From positions 1 through 42,789 of IMG/VR virus record IMGVR_UViG_3300025141_000217: a stretch of DNA of 42,789 nucleotides, one strand, 5' to 3'. A program made the position numbers and the translations under genes. How positions within the stretch are numbered: position 1 is the stretch's first letter; every line of letters starts with the position of its first letter. This document shows, one piece after another, positions 2,596 to 37,098 of the stretch. The notes beneath the pieces are model-generated. The model did no database searches. It saw only the letters and a list, made by a program, of their open reading frames with translations, and was not told the DNA's origin. The stretch is from a virus.

Positions 2596-3474
2596 TTATC
2601 TTTGTGTACCGCCCTTGTTGGACAATACTATTGGATCACGCCTTTTGTTATCTACATTATGTTTCTGCATCATCTTAACCATTTTTTGAGTTTCGGATAA
2701 TCCTGATTGTTCACCAACCCAGCTAGCAAAATCTATAGCATTATGATAATCATTGTCAGATACGAAGGCGTCATCATATTGAACTATATCGCTTAGGTAC
2801 TCGTGTATACCATCCTGAGTCAGAGGTCCGTCATAACCAGAAAGTAATTCGGCCGGATTAGATCCACCTTCTTGTTGATATCGTTCCCCAAGGGCATTTA
2901 CAGCTTCCGTGTCTGAACCAATAAGTTCGCTAATAGGATAGGGGTCACTACCCGGCAACTGTATGTTACCTTGTCCATCAAATGTAGGTTCGGATACGTC
3001 AGGAGGTGAAGCACTTGGACCATAATCAATATCTTCTGGTTTAATTTCTGGTTTAACCGGACCGTAATCAACTTGGTCAACCCCTTCAATTCCTTCAACC
3101 GGACGAACAATTCTGTCTTGAGAAATTTCAGGACCGGGTTCAGGGGCAGGAGGAACGTCTATACCTTGCTGATCTAAATCTTCCCTAATTTGGGCGGCAC
3201 GTTCTGGGTCGCCATAATCTAGGTCATACCCACCTTCAGCAGCATCAGGAGCTACTGCTCCACCACCACCCATGTCGTCGTAGTACTGTCCACCCTTAGG
3301 ACCCGTTTGTACCTGCGCTCCCTCAGGAGCTTGTTCACCGGGCTTAAGGTAAACTCTAGCTTTATCCAATTCCGCAGCGTCCAAACCTTCACCAAAGGGA
3401 CCTTTAGCCAAATGTTGAGTTTGAGTCTTTTTTACGAAATTAGGAAATAGTTCGGACAGTAAGTACTTAGACAT
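2596..3474 (-). CDS. Virion-associated protein with YLKPG linker motif
   Basis: 292 aa, acidic, rich in Gly, Pro, Asp and Gln and probably largely disordered from residue 70 to 200. Residues 41-67 carry a distinctive module that starts VYLKPGE and ends TGPKGGQYYD. A module about two-thirds identical occurs at residues 601-626 of the 882-aa fusion protein in the same operon. I recall similar sequences in head proteins of other phages and haloarchaeal viruses but cannot check this here. Repeats of the type YGP/DYGP (residues 135-155) are also visible. The C-terminal 80 residues look more ordered. The gene overlaps the prohead protease gene by one base (ATGA-type junction). Probably a minor head or virion protein; function unknown. 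Confidence 0.6.
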   Translation of the reverse strand: MSKYLLSELFPNFVKKTQTQHLAKGPFGEGLDAAELDKARVYLKPGEQAPEGAQVQTGPKGGQYYDDMGGGGAVAPDAAEGGYDLDYGDPERAAQIREDLDQQGIDVPPAPEPGPEISQDRIVRPVEGIEGVDQVDYGPVKPEIKPEDIDYGPSASPPDVSEPTFDGQGNIQLPGSDPYPISELIGSDTEAVNALGERYQQEGGSNPAELLSGYDGPLTQDGIHEYLSDIVQYDDAFVSDNDYHNAIDFASWVGEQSGLSETQKMVKMMQKHNVDNKRRDPIVLSNKGGTQR

Positions 3475-8007: not shown

Positions 8008-10656
8008 CTACATGCCTGTATGCGACACGTATTCTACTGTAGACTCTACCCCCACATCTGGGGTGTGGACTATAAATTCAAACTCCCCGAGTGGAAGCTT
8101 GTCCACGCAAGAGGCTATAATATCCTTTACATCAAATCTTCTAGATACCACTACATCTCCAAAATATGTGGACTCATGTGGATGGGCAGTCCAAGAAGAT
8201 AGTGGTAAATCCTTCATGGCTACTCTTTCTCCCGATTTCACGGGAACTTGTCGTTTAGTGTCAACGCCTCGGTACAAAGTAATTTCCTTAATACCACGTT
8301 CTTCAAAACTCCTTTGAGTATTGGAATACAACTCTTTCAGATACGTTCCTGCGCTATTTATAGCTTGTGGATACTTATAGTCTTCTACAGTTTCTTCTGG
8401 GTAGGTAGCTTTAAAAAAGTTAACATTATCTAATTTTTCCGAAGAACTTTCGAACAGTTCTGCGGCAGCGTATTGCATACTTATTGAACTGTTTTCTACG
8501 CTACTTCCTGACCAATCTCCTAAAAATTGCATATCAGAGTATTCTACAAAATTTTCATCTGGTTCTGAAAAAGCATTCTGTAATTTATTCCTATATTCCT
8601 CTGAGTCTAAACCTATTTCTCCTACTATTCGATTAGATATATCTAAATAAGCTTCATTGAAGTCTTTATTGAAGCTATCTGTCATCCCCGGCTCTCTACC
8701 CTCTACTGCTCCGTAGAAAGATGCCTCAGAACGCTCTTCGTGACCTTCAAGTTCCGTTAGTCCCGGATCAACCTCGGCATCATAATAACGACCCCCCGCT
8801 GGTCCCGTTTCGACTTTAACTCCCTCAGGAACCTCTTGACCGGGTTTCAGATAAACTCTATCTTTTTCTAGTTGAATAGCATTAGGTAAAGAATCTATAA
8901 TTTCTAATGCCAACTTCTGGCCGGCGGTGTGATCCATCGGAAAGTGCCAACCAGCTTTTACTCTATTGACACCTATTCTTTCCGCAATATCTTGGAAGTT
9001 TTCTTCGTGTCCCGGAAATAAGTTTCCTAATATCTCAGCTACCACCAAAGATTGGGTAGAGTGTCCTGATGGGTACGAAGGAGAGTCTATACTCGGTCGC
9101 AGGGCAGATACAACATCGTAAATGAAGTAAGGCTCATCCATTTCATACTGCCACGGTCTAGGGTAATTTATTTGATATTTTTTACTCATAACTATAGTGT
9201 TTATGTCGGATAGAAAATCCTCCAACATAGGCACATAATCACCTAAATCTAACCCGTGGTCTAAGCCGTACCTCAAAAAAGGTTTTAGTATCTCTTCATC
9301 AGCCATATCTAATTGTTCTTTTAACCGCTCCTGACCTTTCTCAGATAAGGCTCTAAAATCCGCTTGAATTTGTTCTAAATCTTCTAAAACTTCTCCAGAG
9401 TTGGGAGCGGGAGGTTTGGCTACAACATAATCTTTCGGGGAGCCTCTCAATAGCTTGAATGGGCGATTTACAATTTGGTCATGCTCTTCTGAAATCGGCC
9501 GGTAAAATTTCATAGGAATCGGAGTATCTTTTCGCTTTTCTAGCACCCAACTATGGTCGAGAAAATCATCTTCCTCTATATTCAACAAGTCTCCGGTTTC
9601 TTCCGATGCCGGCCAAGGTTCTTGTTTGAACACTTTTCCGTCACTTTTTACTAAATACACTCCATCTGATGCTAGAGCGGTTTTATCCCCAGATTCGTCT
9701 GTATGAATTACCATAGCTTTATCTAAACGCTCTAAAGCTGCCGATTGGGTTTCCACATAAGGATTATCTTCCTCATGTGCGCCTTCAAATAAAAATCTTA
9801 GGATATATCGTATAATCGGACCCCAAACACCTAATTTATAGTAATAGGTAGATTCCATGTTTATCCAAGCATAGTCCGTATGCTCGTCGCTAAGGAGGGG
9901 TTTAGGTGAGTCTAAAGGTACATAAGCAACTAGAAATAACCCTAGTTTATGCCCTAAATCAGTTTCAACTTCTTGACCTATAACCAAATCGACATCATTT
10001 AGCTTTATTCCCGTTTCTTCTTCAACTTCCCGCAACGCTCCCTCTTCGGGAGTTTCTTCGGTGTGTATATGCCCACCCGGTAAATCCCACCAATCGGAGA
10101 AACTATCCTTTAAAATTAAAACTTTGTCGGACTCATCACGTATAAGAACTTTAGCCGTTATTTGTAAATCTTCATCTTCAGCTTTTTGGAAAATATCTTC
10201 CCAAGACAAAACTGGGTCATGTTGAAAAGGAATTTCGGGAGGATTTAGAACTTTGTACTGGTTCTTTCCTCCTATGTCGGCGGAACGAGTATATTTCCTA
10301 TTATCTCCACTTTTAGGAGACTGTCCTAAAGCGGTATTACCCATATTGTTTATAAAAGGACCTTTTTTAAGGAGAGAATAGTCTTCTTCTATGGAATCAG
10401 GAAAACGTTCAAGACACAGTTGCAACAACTCTTCAGCAAACCCTTCGGGAGTATTTTTCTTGATATCCCGTTTCTTAGGCTTTTTTCTTTTACCCCCACC
10501 ATAAGTAGGAACAAATCCCGAAGATTCTACCGTAAAAACTGTGCCGCCACCATCACCGCCAGAGCCCCCTCCATCACCGCCGGAGCCGCCTCCACCGTTA
10601 CCACCACCTTCTTTTTGCAAGAAAGCCTTAAAGTTCTCTAATTTTTTAGAGGTCAT
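8008..10656 (-). CDS. Nudix - PAP2 phosphatase - ADP-ribosyltransferase fusion, virion cluster
   Basis: 882 aa with at least three enzyme domains. Residues 14-40 are a Gly-rich linker. A Nudix hydrolase domain spans about 160-290 with a perfect box (G195-x5-E-x7-REVEEETGI). A PAP2/haloperoxidase-type acid phosphatase spans about 430-590 with all three signatures: K493-x6-R500-P, PSGH at 529-532, and R565-x5-H571-x3-D575. Residues 601-626 hold the YLKPG linker also seen in the 292-aa protein. Residues about 660-880 fit a mono-ADP-ribosyltransferase: LYRG (R796), LSSWT (S820/S821) and E858-x-E860 as the R-S-E triad. The gene overlaps the portal gene by 11 bp, the place where other phages carry head-morphogenesis proteins with toxin-like domains. 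It may be packaged and injected, like the T4 Alt transferase. Targets are unknown; the ART assignment is the least certain. Confidence 0.8.
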   Translation of the reverse strand: MTSKKLENFKAFLQKEGGGNGGGGSGGDGGGSGGDGGGTVFTVESSGFVPTYGGGKRKKPKKRDIKKNTPEGFAEELLQLCLERFPDSIEEDYSLLKKGPFINNMGNTALGQSPKSGDNRKYTRSADIGGKNQYKVLNPPEIPFQHDPVLSWEDIFQKAEDEDLQITAKVLIRDESDKVLILKDSFSDWWDLPGGHIHTEETPEEGALREVEEETGIKLNDVDLVIGQEVETDLGHKLGLFLVAYVPLDSPKPLLSDEHTDYAWINMESTYYYKLGVWGPIIRYILRFLFEGAHEEDNPYVETQSAALERLDKAMVIHTDESGDKTALASDGVYLVKSDGKVFKQEPWPASEETGDLLNIEEDDFLDHSWVLEKRKDTPIPMKFYRPISEEHDQIVNRPFKLLRGSPKDYVVAKPPAPNSGEVLEDLEQIQADFRALSEKGQERLKEQLDMADEEILKPFLRYGLDHGLDLGDYVPMLEDFLSDINTIVMSKKYQINYPRPWQYEMDEPYFIYDVVSALRPSIDSPSYPSGHSTQSLVVAEILGNLFPGHEENFQDIAERIGVNRVKAGWHFPMDHTAGQKLALEIIDSLPNAIQLEKDRVYLKPGQEVPEGVKVETGPAGGRYYDAEVDPGLTELEGHEERSEASFYGAVEGREPGMTDSFNKDFNEAYLDISNRIVGEIGLDSEEYRNKLQNAFSEPDENFVEYSDMQFLGDWSGSSVENSSISMQYAAAELFESSSEKLDNVNFFKATYPEETVEDYKYPQAINSAGTYLKELYSNTQRSFEERGIKEITLYRGVDTKRQVPVKSGERVAMKDLPLSSWTAHPHESTYFGDVVVSRRFDVKDIIASCVDKLPLGEFEFIVHTPDVGVESTVEYVSHTGM

Positions 10657-33503: not shown

Positions 33504-34712
33504 TTACACTCCTAGCTTTAGCATACGGTCAAGCGCAACTAAAGCATGCCTCTTATGCCCCGATTCAACCTCAATCCTGTTTATTGCAATTCCCGCCAAT
33601 ATCCCCTCCAATACCCAAAGAATGTACGCAGGATGTATTCTATACATTGTAGCACAAGGGCATACTATAGGGTCGAGACAAAATATCTCTTTATCGGGAT
33701 ACTGTTGTGCTAACCGTTTCACCATATTAACTTCAGTACCGATTCCCCAAGACGTTCCTGAGGGAGCGTTAGCTATAGTCTTCAAAATAAACTCTGTAGA
33801 ACCTGACATATCCGCTGCGTCTACCACTTCTCTAGTACACTCAGGGTGTACCAAGATATTAGTCAGAGGATTTTTATCCCTGATAGCGTCTATTTGATCG
33901 GTGGTAAATCTAGTATGAACAGAACAGTGTCCCTGCCACAATAACACAGTAGCTTTGCGAATTTCTTCTTCCTCTAATCCACCCATAGGTAGGTGAGGAT
34001 TCCAGACTTTCATATCCGACTCAGGTATGCCTTTAGCTAGTCCAGTGTTTCTTCCTAAGTGTTGGTCAGGTAGGAATAATATTTTATTCCCTCGTTCCAA
34101 CGCCCAGTCAAAAGCTTTATCAGCGTTAGAAGAAGTACACACCAAGCCACCGTTTTCTCCACAATGCGCTTTTATGGAGGCGGAGGAATTCATGTAGGTT
34201 ATAGGAACAATATCCTCTGTAGAACCCAACACATATTTCAACGCACTCCAACTAGTCTCTACATCATCTATCGCAGCCATATCAGCCATGGAACAACCTG
34301 CGGCTAAGTTAGGCAGTATAACGTTTTGGTCGTTTGAAGTAAGAATATCGGCTGTTTCAGCCATAAAGTGGACACCGCAAAAAATTATCCATTTAGCGTC
34401 TGTGATTTCCGACGCTTGTTTAGATAGTTGATAAGAGTCTCCCGTTATGTCTGCAAATTGTATTACATCATCACGTTGGTAGTGGTGACCTAACACTACA
34501 GCCTTAGTTCCAATTTCCTTCCTAGCAAACGCAATTCCTTCAGTCAATTCCTCAGGAGTTAATTTTGCATATCTAGTAGGTATCTTCTGCCAACGAACTC
34601 CTGCCTTAAACTCTTCTTCTAAAGTTTTGGTGCGTAGGTTTCCATCCGACTGACAAAAAGCCGATTGTTCTAATTCGGTTATGGGTACTATTTGTTTAGT
34701 AGCCGTTACCAT
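33504..34712 (-). CDS. nadA: Quinolinate synthase
   Basis: 402 aa from the ATG at 34712, preferred over one 7 codons upstream because AAGGA lies 7 nt before it and the methyltransferase stop is adjacent. NadA condenses iminoaspartate with dihydroxyacetone phosphate to quinolinate, the first dedicated NAD+ intermediate. The three [4Fe-4S] ligands are C140 (AAGCSMADM), C192 (GLVCTSSNA) and C351 (PIVCPCATMYRIHP). Other signatures are FCGVHFMAETADIL, YMNSSASIKA, LFLPDQHLGRNTG, LLWQGHCSVHTRF and VHPECTREVVD. It is full length. Phage nadA is uncommon. Neither NadB nor NadC is in the window, so the host pathway must supply and finish the reaction. Confidence 0.93.
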   Translation of the reverse strand: MVTATKQIVPITELEQSAFCQSDGNLRTKTLEEEFKAGVRWQKIPTRYAKLTPEELTEGIAFARKEIGTKAVVLGHHYQRDDVIQFADITGDSYQLSKQASEITDAKWIIFCGVHFMAETADILTSNDQNVILPNLAAGCSMADMAAIDDVETSWSALKYVLGSTEDIVPITYMNSSASIKAHCGENGGLVCTSSNADKAFDWALERGNKILFLPDQHLGRNTGLAKGIPESDMKVWNPHLPMGGLEEEEIRKATVLLWQGHCSVHTRFTTDQIDAIRDKNPLTNILVHPECTREVVDAADMSGSTEFILKTIANAPSGTSWGIGTEVNMVKRLAQQYPDKEIFCLDPIVCPCATMYRIHPAYILWVLEGILAGIAINRIEVESGHKRHALVALDRMLKLGV

Positions 34713-34713
34713 T

Positions 34714-36228
34714 TTAATTTCCTTCGTGTACACCTAACATTCGATTTTCTAGCATAAGAAAAGCTACCGCTGCTTGTTGCGGAACTACTCCGTTTCCAAG
34801 TATGCGAAGTTTGTCAGCTCTACCCAATCCTCCGGCCAACCCATCAACCACTCCACGAACTTCGGGTTTAGCCGGGGCAAGGTCGGGTCTTTCCCTGAGG
34901 ATTTGTCCCCACTCAAGGCTTGTTGGACGGGGCGGCCATGAAAATGGTCTGCATCCGAAATCAATCCCCGTTGATGGGAATTCACTGTTGATTTCGCTCC
35001 GTCGTCCCCCGCCATTGGAGTTGACCAATTCGCCGTTTGATCCCGTAGTTTTATCTTCGGATTGCCCCCGTAGTTCTTCTTCACTATCCCACCATCTGGA
35101 TCTGATGCGCTTGGCGTTCTCCAACCCGCCACCCTGTCCTGAAGATTCAGACTGTGGCTGTTCTTTCCATCCTTCGTCTTCCGTCGTCCCGTTTCCGTTA
35201 ATTCCATATCGGGGTGCGGAGTCTCCTGAGTCGTGGGGGTCGGCCAAGTTGACCACATCACCGCTTGTCCCATCAGACGAGAGGGATCCGTCGGTCGATT
35301 CTTGAATTTGTCGTTGGCGTTTGAGGTAGTAGGAGAAGCCCAGTTGTTCCCCACTTCTTGGGCTAGTTCCGCTGCCTTCAGCAAAGATTTCGGACGATTC
35401 TTCACGTTGCTGTTCTGATTCGGTGCTTCGGGCATCGTATCGGGAGTCGGCCAGTTCATATCCTGACTGTACTCTTCTTTCCAACTGGGAACGAATTCGT
35501 GTGCTACTTGATTCGGAAGTTGCGTCATGAACTTCGGTTGACTGTTGGTTCCCTTTACGTCCCTCGCTGTAGGGGTGGACCAACTGCTCACTACCTGACC
35601 CAGCGATACCGAATGTCTCCCCAAACCCGTTTCGGGATTGAAGTTCGTATCCTTGCGGAAGTTCTTGGGTTTGTAGTTCCTGTCCGTCGTGTCGGGGGTC
35701 GGCCATTTGGGCATAGATGAACGCCCGTTCTCGTCTATGACTGGCTCCAACATCGGACGCTTTGTAAACACCCCATTCAACATGGTACCTGAGGTTGGCC
35801 AAGTCCCTGAGGATTTCTTCGAATCCGTCCCCATCATTAACAGATAGGAGTCCACGCACGTTCTCCAAGAACAACCCTTGTGGCTGCGCTTCTGACACGA
35901 TTCTCCTAATGTGAGGGAAAAGCCATCTCTCATCGTCTTGTCCTGATCTTCGTCCTGCAACGGAGGCGGGCTGACAAGGGAATCCTCCAATGATCCAATC
36001 CACTTTTCCACGCCATGGTTTACCGTCGAAGGTTCCGGAATCTGCAAAGATAGGCGCATCATCCAATTGTCCCGTTTGCATGTGGTCAACCAAGAGCGCA
36101 AGGCTCGATGCTTCCCTTTCCACGTAACAGACTGCTCTAGCACTTGGATTTGCGAGTTTGAAGGCAAGGTCGAGTCCCCCGCCTCCTGAGTAGAGACTGA
36201 TGTATTTGATTTCGGGATGTGTATCCAC
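34714..36228 (-). CDS. DNA cytosine-C5 methyltransferase
   Basis: 504 aa from a GTG with AGGAG 10 nt upstream. C5-MTase motifs occur in order: I (SLYSGGGGLDLAF), IV (GGFPCQPAS, catalytic C85), VI (LFLENVRGLL), VIII (GASHRRERAFIYA) and X near the end (LRILGNGVVPQQAAVAF). The middle (about residues 165-440), where the target-recognition domain should lie, is replaced or filled by a hydrophilic array of repeats of the kind LADPHDSGD, LADSRYDAR and LVNSNGGGRR, seven in all. This region has G+C well above its neighbours and encodes a second long frame. Likely it protects phage DNA from host restriction; no matching endonuclease is present. It lies between the TrpF-like gene and nadA. Confidence 0.85.
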   Translation of the reverse strand: MDTHPEIKYISLYSGGGGLDLAFKLANPSARAVCYVEREASSLALLVDHMQTGQLDDAPIFADSGTFDGKPWRGKVDWIIGGFPCQPASVAGRRSGQDDERWLFPHIRRIVSEAQPQGLFLENVRGLLSVNDGDGFEEILRDLANLRYHVEWGVYKASDVGASHRRERAFIYAQMADPRHDGQELQTQELPQGYELQSRNGFGETFGIAGSGSEQLVHPYSEGRKGNQQSTEVHDATSESSSTRIRSQLERRVQSGYELADSRYDARSTESEQQREESSEIFAEGSGTSPRSGEQLGFSYYLKRQRQIQESTDGSLSSDGTSGDVVNLADPHDSGDSAPRYGINGNGTTEDEGWKEQPQSESSGQGGGLENAKRIRSRWWDSEEELRGQSEDKTTGSNGELVNSNGGGRRSEINSEFPSTGIDFGCRPFSWPPRPTSLEWGQILRERPDLAPAKPEVRGVVDGLAGGLGRADKLRILGNGVVPQQAAVAFLMLENRMLGVHEGN

Positions 36229-36230
36229 AC
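34785..36230 (-). CDS. Overlapping WPTP-repeat protein in alternative frame of methyltransferase
   Basis: 481 uninterrupted codons in a different frame, from a GTG at 36230 with AGGAG 8 nt upstream, a better spacing than for the methyltransferase. From residue 120 it is not random: SWRTCVDSYLL, SSGTWPTSGTMLNG, then seven repeats built from W-P/S-T-P...D and L-x-D/N-Q-V-A-x-W (for example WSTPTARDVKGT, LQDRVAGWRTPSASDPDGG), and the end LNPKFVEWLMGWPEDWVEL. I recall free-standing phage proteins of this kind, often labelled DNA methyltransferase. The first 120 residues overlap the conserved catalytic half of the methyltransferase and look less organised. Either a genuine overlapping gene or a shadow of repeat-coding DNA; see findings. 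Confidence 0.5.
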   Translation of the reverse strand: MWIHIPKSNTSVSTQEAGDSTLPSNSQIQVLEQSVTWKGKHRALRSWLTTCKRDNWMMRLSLQIPEPSTVNHGVEKWIGSLEDSLVSPPPLQDEDQDKTMRDGFSLTLGESCQKRSHKGCSWRTCVDSYLLMMGTDSKKSSGTWPTSGTMLNGVFTKRPMLEPVIDENGRSSMPKWPTPDTTDRNYKPKNFRKDTNFNPETGLGRHSVSLGQVVSSWSTPTARDVKGTNSQPKFMTQLPNQVAHEFVPSWKEEYSQDMNWPTPDTMPEAPNQNSNVKNRPKSLLKAAELAQEVGNNWASPTTSNANDKFKNRPTDPSRLMGQAVMWSTWPTPTTQETPHPDMELTETGRRKTKDGKNSHSLNLQDRVAGWRTPSASDPDGGIVKKNYGGNPKIKLRDQTANWSTPMAGDDGAKSTVNSHQRGLISDADHFHGRPVQQALSGDKSSGKDPTLPRLNPKFVEWLMGWPEDWVELTNFAYLETE

Positions 36231-36241
36231 TAATTTAACTC

Positions 36242-36958
36242 CTATTGCTTTAGAAATCCAGAGTTTTCAACTTCGTCCAAAACCCGCTGAATTTTATCAA
36301 AATCCAATGTGCCGTGATTAAATGACCAATTTCGTATTTTACCTTCCATATCAATCCATATGTCTGCATCTCCCGCTGCCGCAGCAATTTGAGGAAGAGC
36401 AGTTCTCATGTTGTCAGGACCTAAACCACCTGAGTATCCAAACTTTCCACCCAAAAGAACGTGATCTGCTTTAGGCCAAACGTTAGGAGAAGTTCCACTT
36501 CCATGAGAAGTATCGAATAGTCCTGATACATTTACGCCCAATGAGTTAGCAAGTCCAAATGTATATGTGTTCATAGGAACATCATCCAACTGGAATATAA
36601 TTTCCTTGTCCGAAAATAAATCGGATTTGAATAATTCTAACGTAGTGTGCTGAGTGTGGTGAGGGTGACCGTGAGTATTAATCTGTACTCGTTGAAAAGA
36701 ATCCCATCCTTCAATAGACAATACTTCTACCGGGTTAGAATTCTCTAATAGTTCTTTTACCGAACACATATGAGCAGAAAGAGGAAGGTCGGTAGAGGTT
36801 AATTCTTTAACCCAACCAGCATCAGGAAAAAGCCCGCCTCCAAAATGTGGTGTTTGTATACCCCATTCAATATATGGATGGGTTTCGTAGAGGTCACACA
36901 TCTTTGTAATAGACGTTCCATTGCTCGCTCCACTAAAAGTTACTGTGTGTATGTTCAA
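36242..36958 (-). CDS. TrpF-like (phosphoribosylanthranilate isomerase-fold) protein
   Basis: 238 aa from the TTG at 36958, chosen because AAGGAG lies 8 nt upstream; an ATG at 37012 lies ahead of the promoter box. The C-terminal half follows the TrpF pattern: GLFDTSHGSGTSPNVWP (LLDSSSGGTG-like), VLLGGKFGYSGGLGPDNMRTAL (aGGLnpeNv-like phosphate site), and ADIWIDMEGKIRN...GTLDFDKIQRVLDEV (DvsSGvE..pGvKD..KI-like). The classic catalytic Cys motif KICG near the N-terminus is not seen; the start is IHTVTFSGASNGTS. So it is a TIM barrel of PRAI type with a changed active site. Substrate unknown; neighbouring nadA could suggest a phosphoribosyl substrate. Confidence 0.55.
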   Translation of the reverse strand: MNIHTVTFSGASNGTSITKMCDLYETHPYIEWGIQTPHFGGGLFPDAGWVKELTSTDLPLSAHMCSVKELLENSNPVEVLSIEGWDSFQRVQINTHGHPHHTQHTTLELFKSDLFSDKEIIFQLDDVPMNTYTFGLANSLGVNVSGLFDTSHGSGTSPNVWPKADHVLLGGKFGYSGGLGPDNMRTALPQIAAAAGDADIWIDMEGKIRNWSFNHGTLDFDKIQRVLDEVENSGFLKQ

Positions 36959-36988
36959 TATGCTCTCCTTAAGCTTTATAGGACTGTA

Positions 36989-36997
36989 AGTATAGCA
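36989..36997 (-). promoter_or_regulatory. Extended -10 promoter TGCTATACT
   Basis: TGCTATACT, an extended -10 (TG-n-TATACT) 28 bp before the TTG start of the TrpF-like gene. A start site about 7 nt downstream leaves a short leader containing AAGGAG. The -35 is weak, as extended -10 promoters permit. Two other -10-like boxes lie further upstream at 37049-37056 (TATAATAA) and 37099-37106. Confidence 0.5.
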
Positions 36998-37098
36998 TAG
37001 ATTTAAGAACATTGGACGAATTATATATTTTCCTACCCAAATATAATTTTATTATACTCAAGTTTTTCAAAAATAAATGGTCAATTTTTAAGGGCTTT

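Follow-up and report, generated by a model that had tools for sequence, protein, structure and literature searches.

Two overlapping phage genes that probably encode one cytosine-5 DNA methyltransferase, split into a catalytic and a recognition domain

Between motifs VIII and X, a cytosine-5 DNA methyltransferase requires a target-recognition domain (TRD) and motif IX. In the two-polypeptide enzyme M.AquI (CYCGRG), the protein is split near the recognition domain and both chains are needed; its genes are not nested, unlike those described here. The genes of a second two-polypeptide enzyme, M.EcoHK31I (YGGCCR), also overlap in different frames, and we know of no module array or shared start codons in that system. 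The recognition modules of multispecific phage C5-methyltransferases are about 40 amino acids long. C5-methyltransferases are active when divided between motif VIII and their recognition domain (PMC3404938, PMC5944983). The larger chain of M.EcoHK31I carries motifs I-VIII and X and the smaller chain carries motif IX, with the predicted TRD said to be in the larger chain (PMC3404938). Multispecific enzymes of the Bacillus phage type place several recognition domains in the interval from motif VIII to motif IX (Trautner et al. 1996, as cited in PMC12707154). Among actinobacteriophage methylases, Float294 gp62/gp61, Mundrea gp78/gp77, and Ramsey gp69 have the same modules and motif IX as the pair described below and belong with it to phrog_1008, but their reading frames overlap little or not at all, and opposite motifs I-VIII they have no conserved second frame. 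Kampy, also of cluster A4, has two adjacent methylase genes that are both transcribed early (PMC4626039). A literature search found no account of the nested alpha/beta pair that we describe here, and its nesting with shared starts is new relative to the known split enzymes M.AquI and M.EcoHK31I.

The pair lies in IMG/VR virus record IMGVR_UViG_3300025141_000217; the window referred to below is the whole stretch of DNA that was analyzed, 42,789 nucleotides in length. The alpha gene (34714-36228, minus strand) encodes 504 residues from a GTG start codon and, on the evidence of its open reading frame, PF00145, and TIGR00675, carries motifs I-VIII in its N-terminal part and motif X at its C-terminus. 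The beta gene (34785-36230, minus strand) likewise starts with GTG and encodes 481 residues, which we divide, using the open reading frame, phrog_1008, and constraint, into an N-terminal part, seven WPTP modules, and motif IX. Beta is read in the +1 frame relative to alpha, with alpha codon position 1 being beta position 3, and nearly all of the DNA, about 1.4 kb, is common to both genes. The beta GTG is 2 nt upstream of the alpha GTG, both within the sequence GTGTGG (36225-36230), and a single Shine-Dalgarno-like AGGAG (36239-36243, minus strand) lies 5' of both start codons. A preliminary description of this DNA had placed the two reading frames at these same starts, with all 481 beta codons open and one AGGAG common to both, and had pointed to recognizable C-terminal motifs in each frame (LGNGVVPQQA in alpha, which is motif X, and LNPKFVEWLMGWPEDWVEL in beta); our results agree with it on all of these points. 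Also confirmed is its observation that seven alpha repeats and seven W-x-[TS]-P beta repeats occupy the same places, and the arithmetic that it gave for this holds: CTGGCCGACCCC reads LADP in one frame and WPTP in the other.

Two close IMG/VR relatives of the locus are L011 and L012 (L013 has the same sequence as L012). Directly downstream of the pair, in L012 as in the window, is the gene for NadA, quinolinate synthase (33504-34733, minus strand; PF02445, E = 9e-95). Just upstream is the gene for a 256-residue protein (36242-37012, minus strand) that is conserved in L011 and L012; Pfam and PHROG searches found no match for this protein, which contains FGYSGGLGPDNM, a stretch that by eye is reminiscent of a TIM-barrel isomerase. 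Elsewhere in the window, an 882-residue protein (8008-10656, minus strand) has Nudix hydrolase matches and an overlapping portal-protein family match.

Alpha residues 8-268 match PF00145 with an E-value of 3.5e-38, a match that covers motifs I-VIII. Alpha also scores above the TIGR00675 cutoff and aligns with M.HhaI (E = 6e-15). The motif I region ISLYSGGGGLD (36169-36201), motif VI FLENV (35857-35871), and motif VIII HRRER (35725-35739) are apparent in the minus-strand sequence, and motif IV with its catalytic cysteine, GGFPCQ (35971-35988, minus strand), was placed by alignment with M.HhaI. Motif X, LGNGVVPQQA (34771-34800, minus strand), is kept in all five seeds and falls where the constraint ratio for alpha, defined below, is 0.19. 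With motifs I, IV (PCQ), VI (ENV), VIII, and a C-terminal motif X, alpha has what is expected of a cytosine-5 DNA methyltransferase. It does not, however, qualify as a complete one-chain enzyme: a search with the M.HhaI motif IX stretch did not find motif IX in alpha (best score 10, compared with 29 in beta), and between motifs VIII and X alpha holds just a hydrophilic stretch, a spacer that is unconstrained.

Profile searches with beta found no Pfam or NCBIfam match, and beta matches phrog_1008, 'DNA methyltransferase', with an E-value of 2e-26; this family is common to beta and to the fused and split relatives described below. Within beta, the M.HhaI motif IX stretch RKLHPRECARVMGYPDSYK is best matched by LNPKFVEWLMGWPEDW (34824-34871, minus strand), whose score of 29 is reached by 0.35% of shuffled betas. 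When the end of beta is compared with the same place in single-chain relatives, hhalign gives a Prob of 96.5 and an E-value of 7e-10 over 20 columns. By pattern, position, and this 20-column profile match, the end of beta is motif-IX-like. Since beta carries the motif IX that alpha lacks, which had gone unnoticed in the preliminary description, the pair has the look of a single enzyme divided over two frames. Motifs I-VIII and X on one chain and motif IX on the other is the same distribution as in M.EcoHK31I, the difference being that the predicted TRD of that enzyme is said to be in the larger chain while the presumed recognition modules here are in beta.

The modules of beta follow one another on the minus strand. 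Module 1 (WPTPDTTD..., 41 residues, 35583-35705), whose alpha shadow is MADPRHDG, is mostly absent in L012. Module 2 (WSTPTARD..., 43 residues, 35454-35582) is followed by module 3 (WPTPDTMP..., 37 residues, 35343-35453), which is also the first module of L023, and by module 4 (WASPTTSN..., 32 residues, 35247-35342). Module 5 (WPTPTTQE..., 41 residues, 35124-35246) is the second module in L020, module 6 (WRTPSASD..., 32 residues, 35028-35123) is missing from L012, and module 7 (WSTPMAGD..., 34872-35027) spans 52 residues together with the linker to motif IX. Across 71 betas there are 1-8 modules per protein (mean 3.8) with a median module length of 40 residues. The same module types occur at different positions in unrelated betas, L048 differs from L075 by one module, and L152 and L066 have near-identical N-terminal parts and different last modules. 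Beta thus contains several modular units that are gained, lost, or exchanged between loci. The array resembles that of the multispecific phage methyltransferases, although those are single chains and here a second protein, read in a different frame, bears the array. Each module may read its own target sequence.

The AlphaFold model of beta is mostly of low confidence (pLDDT 50, pTM 0.23), with residues 25-81 (35988-36158, minus strand) predicted to be helical at moderate confidence. Comparison of solved structures with the beta profile gave chance hits only. The fused relative has a C5-methyltransferase fold (Foldseek, M.HhaI E = 2e-12), and its WPTP-like region is of low confidence in AlphaFold.

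We compared about 220 related loci. Besides L011 and L012, scans yielded about 160 further loci from viruses, 80 from cellular genome records, and 32 of the fused type. They were picked out by their resemblance to alpha or beta, which biases frequencies among them. Many are metagenomic, and several come from isolates, among them Sinorhizobium glycinis (L191) and Rhizobium oryziradicis (L185). Among 145 distinct virus loci, motif IX, where detectable, is in the +1 frame in nearly every case, and alpha is unbroken to motif X in 79 of the 84 loci that have motif IX in +1 and motif X in frame 0. The catalytic motifs and motif IX are therefore in different frames with complementary motif content, as expected for a split C5-methyltransferase. 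Alpha breaks off soon after motif VIII in L025, L080, L123, and L145, where beta is intact and motif X is still in the alpha frame; these loci look as if they encode a three-piece enzyme or translate motif X separately, and perhaps not every member of the family needs an alpha chain bearing motif X. A (CA)n tract, read HTHTHT, lies between the modules and motif IX in L106 (approximately 3200-3300) and L118 (approximately 3250-3330), in both of which motifs IX and X are shifted one frame. This tract could be a phase-variable switch, an indel, or an assembly error.

Other relatives carry the same parts without the nesting. Mycobacterium phage Ramsey gp69 (L006, fused) reads motifs I-VIII, LLPTP repeats, EWMMGWPAGW, and then motif X in one frame. 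L007, L008, and L010 are split relatives. In Float294, Mundrea, and Upyo, one gene holds the I-VIII part and another the LPTP-IX-X part, and the two overlap little or not at all. Among the kin of the fused mycobacteriophage methylases, the LPTP-IX-X part is in +1 in L272, L274, L277, and L284 and in frame 0 in L256-L265, so splits have arisen repeatedly. Gordonia phage JKSyngboy (L009) has another layout, with TPTP repeats in +1 and motifs IX and X in the catalytic frame. Annotated records give one frame only: beta in the isolated Acidovorax phage Alfacinha1 and in Ssp-JY39, and alpha in C75C1 and Mae-JY24.

To ask how many stop codons the beta frame should contain, we kept the protein sequence and the codon usage of every alpha unchanged. 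The nested set for this comparison consists of 81 virus loci that, with relaxed motif detection, have motif IX in +1 and motif X in an uninterrupted alpha frame. Opposite motifs I-VIII, these loci contain 6 beta stops compared with 197 expected, and beta is open in 76 of the 81 compared with 5.6 expected. The third frame is near expectation, with 504 stops and 562 expected. Depletion is likewise seen in the 42 loci of the alpha-only search subset (2 beta stops, 105 expected) and in 54 nested loci from cellular records (19 stops, 119 expected). The fused genes show no depletion (98 stops, 83 expected; 0 of 23 open). Some distant members, such as L188, L199, and L231, do have beta-frame stops opposite motifs I-VIII, so beta in those loci probably starts inside alpha. 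Taken alone, the window is no more than suggestive in having beta open opposite motifs I-VIII (p = 0.07, with 1.9 stops expected), and the wider family makes the case decisive. In the other direction, alpha has 0 stops opposite the modules of beta compared with 393 expected, in a locus set preselected for open alpha. When synonymous codons of the window were permuted with beta amino acids and codon usage fixed, the alpha frame acquired a mean of 13.5 stops and was open in 0 of 300 permutations.

We measured selection in each frame as the ratio of nonsynonymous to synonymous changes in that frame, among changes that are nonsynonymous in the other frame. Independent local alignments were used, since whole-gene pairwise alignment had mixed non-homologous modules, and the ratios are simple counts with one reference sequence per pair, the main bias of which is addressed by matched controls. 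The controls are needed since, in any gene, a change at the first codon position is milder than one at the second; the same analysis of 43 flanking gene pairs gives 0.215 for the gene and 1.06 for its +1 shadow. Over motifs I-VIII, the omega-like ratio is 0.32 for alpha and 0.69 for beta. The beta segment concerned (residues 1-175, 35706-36230, minus strand), which has partial AlphaFold confidence, differs from the flanking-gene shadows with p = 3e-10. Over the WPTP modules, alpha is unconstrained (1.76) and beta is at 0.29; in the last stretch up to motif IX, the ratios are 0.80 for alpha and 0.40 for beta; and from motif IX to motif X, they are 0.19 for alpha and 0.56 for beta. Selection thus moves between the frames, acting on both over motifs I-VIII, on beta only over the modules, mainly on beta at motif IX, and mainly on alpha at motif X. 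There is purifying selection in both frames beyond that in matched non-overlapping controls.

Between the window and L011, 18 of 23 module substitutions fall at the beta third position, and there is 1 substitution in 516 bases over motifs I-VIII. Between the window and L012, alpha third positions over motifs I-VIII differ by 10%, compared with 60% in nadA and 48% in the upstream gene. In 30 diverged loci with synonymous codons permuted, beta similarity opposite motifs I-VIII is 38 standard deviations above the null and that of the third frame is 18; the third-frame excess indicates a contribution from relatedness or shared bases, and the evidence accordingly lies in the contrast and not in the absolute figure.

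We consider it probable, at roughly 0.8, that the two genes, which overlap fully, code for the two domains of a single cytosine-5 DNA methyltransferase, made as subunits that assemble in trans. Alpha would be the large catalytic domain, with motifs I-VIII providing AdoMet binding and the Pro-Cys catalytic loop and motif X closing the fold, and its hydrophilic LADP stretch would be an unconstrained linker kept open so that motif X stays attached. Beta would be the small DNA-recognition domain, with an array of WPTP modules of about 40 residues followed by motif IX, and its N-terminal segment would be overprinted on the catalytic domain. A single ribosome-binding site would serve both start codons, which lie 2 nt from each other, and the two chains would come together in trans as an active enzyme. 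Gain, loss, or exchange of whole modules would alter the target sequences, plausibly providing escape from host restriction. Dual constraint, the motif split, overlapping starts, module turnover, and the fused and split relatives are read directly from the sequences; what we infer is that both frames are translated, that the products assemble and methylate DNA, that each module has its own specificity, and that the enzyme has an anti-restriction role.

The order of motifs I-VIII, TRD, IX, and X across the two frames is that of a single enzyme, and in L025, L080, L123, and L145 the +1 frame continues where alpha stops soon after motif VIII. Both observations would fit programmed ribosomal frameshifting, in which motifs I-VIII are read in frame 0, the ribosome slips to +1 for the modules and motif IX, and it returns for motif X to give one fused chain. 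We regard this as improbable. Two shifts would be required, and frameshifting has no need for a beta frame that is open and constrained opposite motifs I-VIII, for an alpha frame that is open through the modules, as it is in 79 of 84 loci, or for a conserved beta N-terminus with its own start. The sequence NTGTGG, with the alpha start 2 nt past the beta start, is present in 58 of 77 nested loci, and W[ILMV] occurs close to the beta N-terminus in 69 of 78, typically as WLYVP or WILPK, where alpha is variable. The overlapping starts together with the kept beta N-terminus favor two separate initiations over frameshifting.

It also seems unlikely that beta is real and conserved but no subunit, acting instead as an independent factor for DNA binding, regulation, or anti-restriction that happens to be overprinted on a methyltransferase gene. 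Such a role would accommodate the long N-terminal part of beta, which lacks a counterpart in known C5-methyltransferases, but the recognition modules and motif IX that are absent from alpha are both present in beta, and fused and split enzymes join the same modules and motif IX to catalytic motifs. Furthermore, the alpha domain is also encoded at all 80 beta-like loci from cellular records, where we found no solitary beta gene.

The preliminary description had offered a choice between a dual-coding gene and a family of annotated WPTP proteins that arises by mistranslation of Dcm genes in the databases, as an artefact. In the latter case the WPTP frame would be no more than the shadow of a conserved methyltransferase frame. 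The repeat arithmetic that would speak for an artefact is real, but the comparisons refute this reading: over the repeats it is beta that is conserved and alpha that is not, alpha being unconstrained there beyond staying open; stop depletion is confined to the beta frame; and the catalytic frame of the single-frame relative reads LLPTP, not LADP. The dual-coding alternative is strongly supported, since the WPTP frame is constrained when homologues are compared, is open in relatives rather than frequently interrupted, and has its own conserved N-terminus. The idea that the two repeat families are each other's shadow stands insofar as the repeats coincide, with the direction reversed, the LADP spacer being the shadow of the WPTP array. 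As for stand-alone WPTP genes, arrays without overlap do exist, fused in Ramsey gp69 and separate in Upyo gp53, although no beta gene turned up without its alpha partner. An out-of-frame mobile endonuclease like the ShiLan element, a sporadic HNH insertion in actinobacteriophage methylase genes (PMC11855218), would share with beta its kind of host gene and a second protein hidden without stops in another frame, but is hardly tenable given that beta covers the whole gene including the start, is present family-wide, matches methyltransferase profiles, and gave no nuclease match in Pfam, PHROGs, or NCBIfam that would make it a homing endonuclease.

Overlapping genes usually code for unrelated proteins. 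Here, two frames with shared starts appear to code for complementary halves of one enzyme in about 1.4 kb. On the strength of the sequence comparisons, we lean toward the view that the subunit pair represents a class of phage and prophage methyltransferases that is old and widely distributed, with catalytic and recognition domains in two frames, overlapping starts, an overprinted beta N-terminus, and a module array that is exchanged while both frames stay open. The nested arrangement is found in many phages and prophages of which annotators record one of the two proteins. Phage methyltransferases in databases would often be half an enzyme, as the examined records carry one frame or the other, and activity or specificity predicted from the annotated frame alone would fail. 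The alpha/beta pair also lends itself to the study of selection in two frames as a natural experiment, in which relatives of the fused, split, and nested types can be compared, and its modules may offer a modular set of recognition units.
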